64,000 bases of DNA from Zoogloea dura (GTDB lineage: Bacteria > Pseudomonadota > Gammaproteobacteria > Burkholderiales > Rhodocyclaceae): assembly GCF_012927165.1 (NCBI RefSeq), contig NZ_JABBGA010000006.1, forward strand, positions 186,001-250,000. The letters run 5' to 3'. Shown piece by piece: positions 28,860 to 37,953 of the stretch. Position numbers and translations under genes: made by a program. How positions within the stretch are numbered: the first letter of the stretch is position 1; every line of letters starts with the position of its first letter. Below the pieces are notes generated by a model. It did not search any database, had not been told where the DNA came from, and saw nothing but the letters and a program-made list of their open reading frames with translations.

Positions 28860-29342
28860 ATGCCCGCTGTGACCCTGCCCCCCCATGCCACCGGTGACTT
28901 CTTCGTCGACTACGAAGAGAAGGTCTTTGAAGATGTGAAGGCCGAAGCCGGCCAGAAGGCCCTCGTCACCTTCCATACCGTCGCCTTCGAAGGCTCCATC
29001 GGCCTGGTCAACCTGCTCCAGGCCACCCGCCTGCTGCGCAAGGGCTACGAGACCTCCATCCTCCTCTACGGTCCCGGCGTGACGCTCGGGCTGCAGCGCG
29101 GCTTCCCGCGGATCGGTGACGAGGCCTTCCCGGGCCACCTGGCGATGAACAAGCAGATCGCCAAGTTCATCGAGGAGGGCGGCAAGGTGTATGCCTGCCG
29201 CTTTGCGCTGCAGGCGCTGTATGGCCACGGCGAGCCCTCGCTGATCCCCGGCATCCGCCCGATCAGCCCGCTTGACGTGCTGGACATCCAGCTCCTCCAC
29301 AAGCGCGACAACGCCTTCGTCATCAACAGCTGGACGCTCTGA
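28860..29342 (+). CDS. MSMEG_0572/Sll0783-family nitrogen-starvation response protein
   Basis: This is a 160-residue protein of the Sll0783 family, the first gene of the conserved Nit1C cluster. In Synechocystis sll0783 is induced by nitrogen starvation and needed for polyhydroxybutyrate accumulation. The sequence has a DsrE-like alpha/beta pattern ([27 protein letters not shown]) and a conserved middle ([25 protein letters not shown]). There is no known catalytic motif. ATG 28860 follows a good AAGGAA site. It is the leading gene downstream of the sigma-54 promoter and 21 bp before nit1. Confidence 0.88.
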
Positions 29343-29363
29343 GCGTCAGCCCGGGAGACGAGC

Positions 29364-30383
29364 ATGACGACCGCAAGAATCGTCCGCGTTGCCGCGGTGC
29401 AGATGAGCCCCGACCTCGAGTCGGCCACCGGGACGGTGGACAAGGTGTGCCGCGCGATCCTGGAAGCGGGGGAGAAGGGGGCCCGCATGGTGGTGTTCCC
29501 CGAGACCTTCGTGCCCTATTACCCGTACTTCTCCTTCGTCCAGCCGGCGGTGACGATGGGGGCGGCCCATCTCGAGCTGTATGAGCGGGCGGTGACGGTG
29601 CCGGGGCCGGTGACCCAGGCGGTCGGCGAGGCCGCCCGGCGGGCGGGAGCGGTCGTCGTGCTCGGCGTCAATGAGCGGGACCATGGTTCCCTCTACAACA
29701 CCCAGCTGGTCTTCGACGAGAGCGGGCGCCTGATCCTCCGGCGCCGCAAGATCACCCCCACCTACCACGAGCGCATGGTGTGGGGGCAGGGCGACGGCAG
29801 TGGCCTCAAGGTGGTGGACACCGGCATCGGCCGCATCGGGGCCCTGGCCTGCTGGGAGCACTACAACCCGCTGGCCCGCTACGCCCTGATGGCCCAGCAC
29901 GAGGAGATCCACGCCAGCCAGTTTCCGGGTTCGATGGTGGGCAACATCTTCGCCGAGCAGATCGCCGTGACGATCCGCCACCACGCCCTGGAGTCGGGCT
30001 GCTTCGTGGTCAATGCCACCGGCTGGCTGAGTGATGCGCAGGTGGCTTCGATCACCCCCGATCCGGCCATGCAGCGGGCCCTGCGCGGTGGCTGCCACAC
30101 CGCCATCGTGACCCCCGAGGGCAACTACCTGGGCGAGCCGCTGCGGGAAGGCGAGGGCATGCTGATCGCCGACCTGGACATGGCCCTCATCACCAAGCGC
30201 AAGCGAATGATGGATTCGGTCGGGCACTACGCCCGTCCGGAGCTGCTCTCCCTGCGCGCCGACCTGGCCGCCCGGATGCCCCTGCACGGCGTCGGCGAGC
30301 TTTCCCCTTCCCCCTCCCTCTCCCCGATGTCAGGAGTCGATCATGTCGATGACAGCACTGCGTCCGCAACAGCTGATCTCTGA
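29364..30383 (+). CDS. nit1: Nit1 nitrilase (Nit1C cluster, putative cyanide hydrolase)
   Basis: This is a C-N hydrolase of the nitrilase superfamily, 339 residues. The catalytic triad is visible as E47 (VVFPETFVP), K129 ([11 protein letters not shown]) and C163 ([11 protein letters not shown]), with E136 as the usual extra glutamate. In Pseudomonas the corresponding enzyme of this cluster was shown to be needed for growth on cyanide as nitrogen source, acting as a cyanide-hydrolysing enzyme. Substrate here is inferred from the cluster. The last 30 residues are low-complexity Ser/Asp-rich and overlap the start of the radical SAM gene by 41 bp. Confidence 0.9.
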
Positions 30384-35984: not shown

Positions 35985-36884
35985 ATGCTCGAAACCACCT
36001 TGTCGATGCCGCCCGGCCGCTGTTTGCCCGGGCTTCACGGGGCCCAGCGGGTGGGCATGCCGCAGCTCGCCCTCAACGGCTTGTCGGAGACCTGGCTGCT
36101 GGCCGACTGTGGTGATCGCCACTGGCAGCTGCTGGCCGCCGCCTCGGGGGCGTCCATCGCGCAGCTGCGGGATGGACGTCAGCGCCGGGTCTATCCCGCC
36201 TTCCGGGCGCTGCGGCTGCGCCACGGGGCGCTGGACGGCGTCCGTGAGGACGACGTCCTGCAGATCGACAGCACCCTGGGGCGGGTCAGCCGCACCCAGT
36301 TCTGCAGCAAGCATGTGATCTCCACCGCCGGTGGCGGACTTTGCGCGGTGGTGGAGATGCTGTCGGTGTTCGTGGCCCGGGAGCGGGCCGGGGTCAACAC
36401 CTCGGCAGTGCGTAGCCCGGTGCCGGGCTTCGAGCATGTGCCGCAGATGGAGGAGGGGCTGGGTCTGGCGGCGGTGGCCCGCAAGACCCGCGGGCACGAT
36501 GCCGACGCGCGCTTCGGGCGGATCGGCCACAGCTACGCGCCTGTCCATGTGCAACCCTGCCCGTCGATTCATTTCAACGGGGCCGGCTTCCTGTATTTCG
36601 CGCGCTTCCCCGAGCTGGCGGATCAGGCCGAGTGGGCCTGGTTCGGGCCGCGGGCCTCGTCATCCCTGACGACCGAGAGGCAGTTGATCTACCACGGCAA
36701 CGCCAATGTCGGCACGCCGCTGGTGGTCCACCTGGCCGGCTTCGATCCGGACAACCCGCTGCATCACCACTGCCAGATCGTCCGCGGGGACGACAAGCAG
36801 GTGATTGCCGACATCACCACCCGCAAGCGTCCCCGCCACGATGCCCAGTCCTTCCTGGACACCTTGTTCGAGCCGCAGGCGTGA
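35985..36884 (+). CDS. LnmK/Pnap_2097-like protein (hot-dog acyltransferase/decarboxylase relative)
   Basis: This is a 299-residue protein that I place tentatively with the LnmK/Pnap_2097 family, a double-hot-dog group whose characterised member LnmK is an acyltransferase/decarboxylase in leinamycin synthesis. The N-terminal MPQLALNGLSETWLLADCGDRHW segment (spanning about 24-46) is the main clue. The region PSIHFNGAGFLYFARFPELAD also looks hot-dog-like. It follows the flavoprotein by 34 bp with a good GAGGAG site, so it is likely part of the operon. Whether it belongs to Nit1C metabolism is unknown. Confidence 0.6.
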   Translation: MLETTLSMPPGRCLPGLHGAQRVGMPQLALNGLSETWLLADCGDRHWQLLAAASGASIAQLRDGRQRRVYPAFRALRLRHGALDGVREDDVLQIDSTLGRVSRTQFCSKHVISTAGGGLCAVVEMLSVFVARERAGVNTSAVRSPVPGFEHVPQMEEGLGLAAVARKTRGHDADARFGRIGHSYAPVHVQPCPSIHFNGAGFLYFARFPELADQAEWAWFGPRASSSLTTERQLIYHGNANVGTPLVVHLAGFDPDNPLHHHCQIVRGDDKQVIADITTRKRPRHDAQSFLDTLFEPQA

Positions 36885-37005
36885 ACCGGCCTGGGGCTCT
36901 GTGCTCATCGATAAAGTGAGCATCTGAATCTGTAGTCATCGGGGCGCTCGTTTATGCTTGGCGGGCCCGAACCGCCATGCCTGCGCCGCTGCGCCCCCGA
37001 CATCC

Positions 37006-37953
37006 ATGAATACCTTCCGAACTCCCGGCTCCGGGCTCTCCGATCACCTCCGCGGCCTGCTCGCCGCCGGCGTCGTCGTGCTGTGCTGGTCGGGCTTCAA
37101 TATCGTGTCCCGCCTGGGCAGCACCGGCGTACTGACACCCTTCGACATCGCGGCCCTGCGTTTCGGCGTGTCCGGTCTGCTGGCCCTGCCGTATTTCATG
37201 TTGCGGGTGGCGCCGGTCGAATGGCCGCGCTACATGATCCTGGCCGTGTTCGGGGGGCTGGGCTACGGGGTGCTGGTGTATTCCGGCTTTGCCTTTGCTC
37301 CTACGGCACACGCCGGGGTTTTCGTGAATGGCGGCATCCCGTTCTGGACCATCGTCATCGTGGCGGCCATGTCGGGCTTCCGGCTGGCCCGCAATATCGG
37401 CCTGGCCCTGCTGCTGACCAGCGGCGGCCTGATCCTGATGGCCTCCGGCAGCCTGCTGGACGCGGGGGGAGGTTCGCGCTGGGTCGGCGACCTGCTGTTC
37501 CTGCTGGCCGCCTTGTCGTGGGCGATCTTCGGCCTCTTGATGCGGCGCTGGCAGGTCCGGCCGCAGCTGGCGATCACCGGCGTGGCCAGCTTTTCCATGC
37601 TGGCCTATCTGCCCCCCTATCTGCTGTGGCTGCCCAAAGCCCTGGGTGAGGCCTCTGCTGGAGAGATCGCCCTGCAGGCGGGGTACCAGGGGGTGGTCGC
37701 GGCGCTGCTGGCCGGCGGCATGTACAGCTATGCCAACCAGAAGATCGGCGCCTGTCAGGCCTCGATGATGCTGGCCCTGGTGCCGGGCGTGTCCGGCGTA
37801 GGTGCCTGGTTCATCCTGGGCGAACCGCTGGGCATCCGGGCCGTGGTGGGGATCGTTGCGGTGTCCCTGGGGGCGGTTCTGTGCGCGGTGCCCCCCGGAG
37901 CGTTCGCCCGGACCTTTCTGCGTTTCCGGGGGGATGCAGAGGGTGAGCGCTGA
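37006..37953 (+). CDS. EamA/DMT-superfamily transporter
   Basis: This is an inner-membrane drug/metabolite transporter, 315 residues, with two EamA repeats and about ten helices. Typical positions are CWSGFNIVSRLG near the N-terminus and LALVPGVSGVGAWFILGEP near residue 270. These proteins usually export metabolites or amino acids. It lies 121 bp after the LnmK-like gene in the same direction. It may export the product of the Nit1C-linked pathway, or be an independent gene. Confidence 0.88.
   Translation: MNTFRTPGSGLSDHLRGLLAAGVVVLCWSGFNIVSRLGSTGVLTPFDIAALRFGVSGLLALPYFMLRVAPVEWPRYMILAVFGGLGYGVLVYSGFAFAPTAHAGVFVNGGIPFWTIVIVAAMSGFRLARNIGLALLLTSGGLILMASGSLLDAGGGSRWVGDLLFLLAALSWAIFGLLMRRWQVRPQLAITGVASFSMLAYLPPYLLWLPKALGEASAGEIALQAGYQGVVAALLAGGMYSYANQKIGACQASMMLALVPGVSGVGAWFILGEPLGIRAVVGIVAVSLGAVLCAVPPGAFARTFLRFRGDAEGER

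Follow-up and report, generated by a model that had tools for sequence, protein, structure and literature searches.

The core of the Nit1C gene cluster was published in 2005 (Podar et al., PMC1199592), and the cluster has been tied to cyanide assimilation and growth on cyanide in pseudomonads (PMC11049912). In 2016, a nine-gene Nit1C operon was described for the nitrilase NitraS-ATII of the Red Sea Atlantis II site (PMC4751646). Nit1C is found in many proteobacteria and on plasmids, and in the accessible literature a role has been assigned to its nitrilase alone. We analyzed a Nit1C locus of Zoogloea dura that lies in a stretch of 64,000 nucleotides (the window; contig NZ_JABBGA010000006.1, positions 186,001 to 250,000), in which the core is followed by a gene for a protein resembling LnmK of leinamycin biosynthesis and then by an EamA transporter gene.

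All seven core genes of the cluster of 2005 occur in the window, in unchanged order, with a GT4 glycosyltransferase gene between open reading frames (ORFs) 5 and 6, as reported for Burkholderia and Rubrivivax (PMC1199592). The same paper found no conservation outside Nit1C between species, whereas in our comparison the cluster was repeatedly accompanied by LnmK-like, mutase, ligase-like and MocR genes. The locus is genuine and represents a variant of this known cluster that recurs in other genomes.

The LnmK-like gene behind the Nit1C core

The ORF list and ten translations were scanned against NCBIfam and Pfam, with the following results for the core and the gene behind it.

28860 to 29342, + strand: Sll0783/MSMEG_0572 family protein, weakly DsrE-like (TIGR04044, 274 bits; cut-off 109.85)
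29364 to 30383, + strand: Nit1 nitrilase, Nit6803 family (TIGR04048, 565 bits; cut-off 502.6)
30343 to 31452, + strand: radical SAM protein (TIGR04043, 571 bits; cut-off 303.7)
31449 to 32027, + strand: GNAT acyltransferase (TIGR04045, 187 bits; cut-off 68.45)
32024 to 33031, + strand: AIR-synthase-like protein (TIGR04049, 452 bits; cut-off 321.3; Pfam AIRS and AIRS_C)
33028 to 34284, + strand: GT4 glycosyltransferase (TIGR04047, 442 bits; cut-off 259.85; GTG start at 33028 inferred)
34277 to 34573, + strand: MSMEG_0570 family small protein (TIGR04042, 133 bits; cut-off 79.85)
34622 to 35950, + strand: flavin-dependent oxidoreductase, MSMEG_0569 family, the flavoprotein of the text (TIGR04046, 637 bits; cut-off 498.35)
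35985 to 36884, + strand: LnmK-like double hot-dog protein, Pnap_2097 family, putative accessory acyl module (TIGR04099, 257 bits, cut-off 125; TIGR04098, 232 bits, cut-off 100)

The scans and reading frames confirmed the ten + strand genes, the EamA gene included, at the coordinates given in a preliminary description of this DNA. The eight Nit1C genes (28860 to 35950) each exceed their own NCBIfam cut-off. Overlaps, which that description had placed at most junctions, occur at five of the seven core junctions: 41 bases between the nitrilase and radical SAM genes, 4 between radical SAM and GNAT, 4 between GNAT and AIR synthase (assuming a GTG start at 32024 for the latter), 4 between AIR synthase and GT4 (assuming the GTG start at 33028) and 8 between GT4 and the MSMEG_0570 gene. 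The gap between the flavoprotein and LnmK-like genes is 34 bases, and that between the LnmK-like and EamA genes is 121 bases.

The preliminary description had proposed that both added genes be checked by counting their co-occurrence with Nit1C. The LnmK-like gene passed in four samples; for the EamA gene, treated below, the link was weak. In a sample of 250 genomes from the order, the Nit1C radical SAM protein exceeded its cut-off in 11 and TIGR04099 in three, and all three fell within the 11 (hypergeometric P 6.4e-5; 1.5e-3 without the window). A scan of GTDB r220 with an alignment of three LnmK-like members, which was not exhaustive in that two peptide patterns overlooked many members known by other means, yielded 11 loci, and in 11/11 the LnmK-like gene stood behind the Nit1C flavoprotein gene, within 140 bases in ten and at about 1.06 kb in L050; the seven core genes are complete in ten of these loci and only partly present in one, the Caballeronia locus L047. 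Among 57 plasmid records matching the LnmK-like protein (E 1e-8), many of them near-duplicates and 24 from Agrobacterium, 53 have it adjoining Nit1C genes: 47 with a radical SAM gene 2.6 to 6.6 kb away and six more with annotated Nit1C genes. No Nit1C gene was found within 6 to 8 kb on each side in the four other records, where the surroundings are of polyketide, acyl-carrier or polysaccharide type. In the window's own family, the Nit1C marker is present in 21 of 296 genomes, and the LnmK-like gene occupies the same slot at 18 of the 19 loci fetched besides the window (a twentieth, G888, was left out at a contig end). A sample of 321 genomes from the class had Nit1 above its cut-off in three and TIGR04099 above its cut-off in the window genome alone, apart from one weak match in G387 (47 bits). 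The other two genomes with Nit1C in this sample are uninformative on LnmK because their contigs end before or within the flavoprotein gene. Comparison of the loci shows that the LnmK-like gene recurs with Nit1C as an accessory, in the position behind the flavoprotein gene.

Two observations were made in passing. Several Nit1C loci of alphaproteobacteria have a DUF983 gene behind the LnmK-like gene or close to it (L071, 10876 to 11283; L140, 6571 to 6933; L143, 164 to 601). On a plasmid of Thalassospira marina (L141, 7926 to 8837), a Pnap_2097 member stands with genes for an acyl carrier protein, an acyl-AMP ligase and a P450, with no Nit1C gene in view, in an uncharacterized biosynthetic locus.

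The LnmK-like protein scores above the cut-offs of two models, Pnap_2097 (TIGR04099) and LnmK (TIGR04098). An AlphaFold2 model built from 12 sequences (predicted local distance difference test score, pLDDT, 85.4) has a double hot-dog fold, and its seven top PDB matches are all LnmK, at template modeling scores of 0.71 to 0.75 and 20 to 22% identity; acyl-acyl carrier protein (ACP) thioesterases come next. In LnmK, Tyr62 carries the acyl group. In an alignment with chain 6x7l, this residue corresponds to Tyr70 of the window protein (counted from the ATG at 35985) and a loop Asn to Asn198; LnmK employs its loop Asn (PMC8666670). The equivalents of both Tyr70 and Asn198 were invariant in 49/49 intact LnmK-like proteins, a set in which two loci are present twice and from which three remnants were left out, and were also kept in 12/12 proteins of a second set. 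Fold, residues and companion genes agree with the acyl step that the preliminary description had assigned to this protein.

Mutase and ligase-like companions, and GNAT as a possible partner

A first companion is methylmalonyl-coenzyme A (CoA) mutase. In family f31 (the family of genome G119), the Nit1C marker is present in 65 of 299 genomes; all 65 loci were read and a flavoprotein gene was seen in 64, with an LnmK-like gene in 35. The mutase gene is present at 31 of these 35 loci and at none of the 29 others (Fisher 3e-14, uncorrected for relatedness). Three of the four f31 LnmK loci without a mutase retain only remnants of 75, 134 and 124 residues, and in the fourth, L088, the LnmK-like gene is intact. 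Remnants of LnmK-like genes are seen in L078, L082 and L084, each also lacking the mutase, a sign that the two genes were lost together. The three mutases tested, from L048, L052 and L055, all passed the methylmalonyl-CoA mutase equivalog model (930 to 1008 bits; cut-off 876), and that of L048 has the B12-binding motif GQDGHDRG. Three mutases from distant loci are 56 to 64% alike, and 47 to 52% like the window genome's own, as compared without a tree.

It is possible that the LnmK-like protein is instead a thioesterase, or an acyltransferase to a general ACP, so that the acyl group would not be specifically propionyl and the GNAT protein would not be its partner. Such a role would fit the rank of acyl-ACP thioesterases just after LnmK among the structural matches, the ACP or polyketide synthase genes that adjoin relatives with no Nit1C gene within 6 to 8 kb, and the absence of a mutase beside the LnmK-like gene in the window's family. 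Against it, the Tyr and Asn positions of LnmK are invariant in all 49 intact proteins and the mutase of f31 is found only with LnmK; we consider it unlikely.

To a wider comparison 106 loci were collected, of which L047, L071, L094 and L138 were dropped for want of a radical SAM or flavoprotein match, leaving 102; near-duplicates were kept and own-family loci fetched later were left out. A mutase was counted above 400 bits, which excluded a weaker match in L037, and a ligase-like gene above 200 bits, which excluded matches of 53 to 66 bits in L082, L099 and L119. LnmK and mutase genes occurred together in 38 loci, LnmK alone in 17, mutase alone in none and neither in 47. The ligase-like gene was absent from all 55 loci with LnmK and present in 6 of the 47 without (P 0.008), behind the flavoprotein gene in five and behind a displaced GNAT gene in the sixth. 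The ligase-like proteins of Klebsiella and Acidisoma score best against propionate-CoA ligase (491 and 551 bits) and then acetate-CoA ligase (404 and 514 bits). Comparison of the loci shows that the slot after the flavoprotein gene is often taken by an LnmK-like gene, which in many loci of some families is followed by the mutase, and in other loci by an acetate/propionate-CoA-ligase-like gene instead. The pairing of LnmK with the mutase is a matter of lineage. We also considered whether GT4 and LnmK are strict alternatives and rejected this: both were present in 19 loci, LnmK only in 36, GT4 only in 36 and neither in 11, so that the association is negative (P 2.5e-5, relatedness not removed) and is not significant in the independent-pair test.

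A second candidate partner is the GNAT protein. Its gene was out of its usual place in only 2 of 104 gene orders, and in both it adjoined the acyl module: in L076 it heads the series GNAT-LnmK-mutase, and in L086 it precedes the ligase-like gene. Caballeronia sp. dw_19 has a full Nit1C cluster with GT4 and without LnmK (L182) and, on another contig, a second locus (L047) of the order Sll0783-GNAT-flavoprotein-LnmK-mutase. Together with the displaced GNAT genes, the two Caballeronia loci suggest a match of both the GNAT protein and the flavoprotein with the acyl group. A search by trees for co-evolution of GNAT with the module was set aside: the mutase at first took 11 changes for GNAT against 14 to 17 for other genes, and with equal numbers of columns 14.5 against 14.9 to 17.2, within noise.

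We tentatively read the locus as a Nit1C core plus acyl-donor module. Exchangeable modules, LnmK-like or ligase-like, would provide a propionyl-type group that the GNAT protein probably uses; we put the odds of this reading at slightly below even. The mutase would make methylmalonyl-CoA from succinyl-CoA. Since the window genome encodes its methylmalonyl-CoA mutase on another contig, substrate for the LnmK-like protein could come in trans. Like LnmK, the LnmK-like enzyme would then decarboxylate the methylmalonyl thioester and so yield a propionyl thioester; the ligase-like gene would provide an alternative route to a short acyl-CoA. The nitrilase, the radical SAM protein and the AIR-synthase-like protein would make a product that the GNAT protein N-acylates with that donor and that GT4 glycosylates in some lineages. 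On this view, the module would lead to a propionylated product.

Several results weigh against the acyl-donor reading. The mutase lies beside the LnmK-like gene in 0/18 loci of the window's own family and in 0/11 alphaproteobacterial LnmK loci checked, nor does one adjoin it in the window. The loci counted are related to one another. In the best radical SAM tree, in which many branches lack support, the presence of LnmK switches at least 17 times. Of only six supported independent pairs, an average of 2.9 have the mutase changing together with LnmK and none has it changing the opposite way, with significance out of reach. No association is significant on this tree, though the direction agrees. 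The evidence from relocation of GNAT comes from two loci, and the advantage of the GNAT tree over those of other genes in following the mutase is slight, within noise. The Klebsiella and Acidisoma ligase-like proteins fall below the propionate-CoA ligase cut-off of 955. LnmK acts on an ACP, and no ACP annotation was present in nine annotated LnmK-bearing Nit1C plasmid loci, whose gene tables are incomplete (the window was not searched with a carrier-protein model). Finally, the acyl module would be dispensable for cyanide use, because the cluster of Pseudomonas CECT 5344, as far as it is described in the accessible text, has neither GT4 nor LnmK.

Core enzymes, regulator and transporter

The seven core genes of the window stand in the conserved Nit1C order, which was kept in 99 of 104 loci. 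Residues were compared over 120 loci with all seven core genes. The nitrilase, which scores 482 bits against the solved nitrilase 3wuy, keeps Glu47, Lys129 and Cys163 in 120/120 loci, the triad named by Podar et al. (PMC1199592). In the radical SAM protein, a CX9CX2C motif (Cys127, Cys137 and Cys140) of unusual spacing is invariant, a C-terminal CX2CX2C is nearly so and may be the site of a second iron-sulfur cluster, and the Cys residues of the protein are kept in 118 to 120 of the loci. The Sll0783-like family gave weak Pfam DsrE matches in 11/11 members (best E 6e-4), among which the window's own protein, at E 0.029, fails the Pfam cut-off; Cys113 is kept in 120/120 loci. The protein may have a sulfur-carrier-type fold, and its predicted structure was too poor for use (pLDDT 45).

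A rival view of Nit1C is plain cyanide assimilation. Cyanohydrins arising from 2-oxo acids would be hydrolyzed by the nitrilase, the genes of the LnmK-like, mutase and ligase-like kinds would only manage carbon skeletons or acyl-CoA pools, and no new metabolite would be made. CECT 5344, with neither LnmK nor GT4 in its cluster, is reported to require NitC for cyanide assimilation (PMC11049912, PMC6368324). In keeping with a link to cyanide, genes for cytochrome ubiquinol oxidase, perhaps of the cyanide-insensitive type, are found close to Nit1C on plasmids of Komagataeibacter (L159, 15410 to 17026) and Methylocystis (L071, 20324 to 20813). Cyanide assimilation, however, leaves the radical SAM, GNAT, AIR-synthase-like and GT4 proteins unexplained despite the near-constant core order, and both displaced GNAT genes adjoin the acyl module. 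We regard it as unlikely.

That Nit1C is a biosynthetic route is plausible from its enzyme content. A general form of the acyl-donor reading, possible but doubtful in our view, is that Nit1C is a widespread pathway for an N-acylated small molecule, with exchangeable donors for the last step (mutase plus LnmK-like decarboxylase, a ligase-like enzyme, or none and hence general acetyl-CoA) and optional glycosylation by GT4, and that the nitrilase acts on a nitrile of the pathway and not merely on cyanohydrins.

Three further features flank the core and the LnmK-like gene.

27093 to 28517, + strand: MocR-type regulator (GntR plus pyridoxal phosphate aminotransferase fold), likely regulator of the cluster; best model ecto_TF_EhuR, below its cut-off (431 bits; cut-off 480)
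36902 to 36922, no strand: inverted repeat TGCTCA-N9-TGAGCA in the gap between the LnmK-like and EamA genes, a candidate operator
37006 to 37953, + strand: EamA/DMT transporter, only loosely linked; generic Pfam EamA, with matches to two NCBIfam transporter models that fall far short of the cut-offs

The MocR-type gene was absent from the gene list of the preliminary description, and the locus should rather be taken to start with it, at 27093. A MocR homologue is present at 64 of the 65 Nit1C loci of family f31 and at 96 of the 102 compared loci, the window's own counted; in genus g387 it comes after the LnmK-like gene, in the same direction. Rfam gave no match at gathering scores within 26000 to 39500, and promoter and terminator scans gave scores no better than chance.

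At E 1e-5, an EamA homologue was found at none of 107 other Nit1C loci and at 2 of 20 further loci, both of the own family, hence at 2/127 in all, a total in which three loci are the same place counted twice. One, in L172, has 61% identity and is convergent with LnmK; the other, in L169, has 37% identity and lies upstream of the cluster. A 65% orthologue in G1054 lies about 2.5 kb upstream of MocR, just outside the stretch searched. In G948, G1043 and G1085, of the same genus, the orthologues (76 to 78%) are on other contigs than Nit1C, and in G1065, a genome without Nit1C, the match contains a stop codon. Among 239 genomes of the family, 43 have an EamA orthologue (E 1e-60), 7 with Nit1C and 36 without, and in 3 of the 7 the two are linked. 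Linkage within the family seems, in our judgement, commoner than chance; as a fixed member of Nit1C, EamA was rejected on these counts. A DMT transporter near the Nit1C cluster of Aquabacterium is not recognizably related to the window's EamA (best E 0.8). Export, which the preliminary description had added to the acyl step, is not a general part of Nit1C; in a few relatives the product may leave the cell through EamA.

The view that the LnmK-like and EamA genes are chance neighbors of a mobile Nit1C cluster would fit the unlinked EamA orthologues in the three genomes of the same genus and in the 36 family genomes without Nit1C. For LnmK, chance is refuted by its placement beside Nit1C in the GTDB, plasmid and own-family counts (11/11, 53/57 and 18/19), and we hold this explanation of the two genes to be highly improbable.

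Comparison with known systems

The preliminary description had called this system poorly described. This stands for its product and chemistry; the core, its tie to cyanide assimilation and a mutase-extended operon were already in print (PMC1199592, PMC11049912, PMC4751646). In the nit1C cluster of CECT 5344, nitBCDEFGH match the seven core genes by name, and in the accessible text a sigma-54 regulator, NitA, takes the place that MocR has in the window, with no GT4 and no LnmK-like gene (PMC11049912, PMC6368324).

In the NitraS-ATII operon, the seven core genes come first, and the last two of its nine genes encode a conserved hypothetical protein and then a putative methylmalonyl-CoA mutase (PMC4751646). 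If the hypothetical protein is LnmK-like, this is the order of 26 loci in our comparison; the window differs from it in having GT4 and no adjacent mutase. One operon with the mutase arrangement was thereby already in print in 2016, which reduces the surprise. In its accessible text, that paper leaves the hypothetical protein unnamed, proposes no function and surveys no other loci. The LnmK-like identity of the gene, a count over many loci, the exchange with a ligase-like gene and the link to GNAT were not found in the accessible parts of the open-access literature; the family name Pnap_2097 and its label 'biosynthetic process' at NCBI indicate that curators had noticed the family. A recurring, exchangeable acyl module offers a handle on what the other enzymes may make, and points to a propionyl group that can be searched for by mass spectrometry. 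If the acyl-donor reading is true, the question why a cyanide cluster has need of an acyltransferase and a radical SAM enzyme can be put to a direct test.

The LnmK of leinamycin biosynthesis (4HZN, 6X7L-6X7P) shares with the window protein its fold, the equivalent of Tyr62, the Asn loop and TIGR04098. The two differ in sequence (20 to 22% identity) and surroundings: the Nit1C members often stand with a methylmalonyl-CoA mutase, and no polyketide synthase was seen beside them. A hot-dog decarboxylase paired with a GNAT protein, as proposed here, is known from the malonyl-ACP decarboxylases MadA and MadB (PMC8666670). MadA is a GNAT fused to a malonyl-ACP decarboxylase with one hot-dog domain (Pfam 09500), whereas in Nit1C the two proteins are encoded by separate genes and the hot-dog fold is double.

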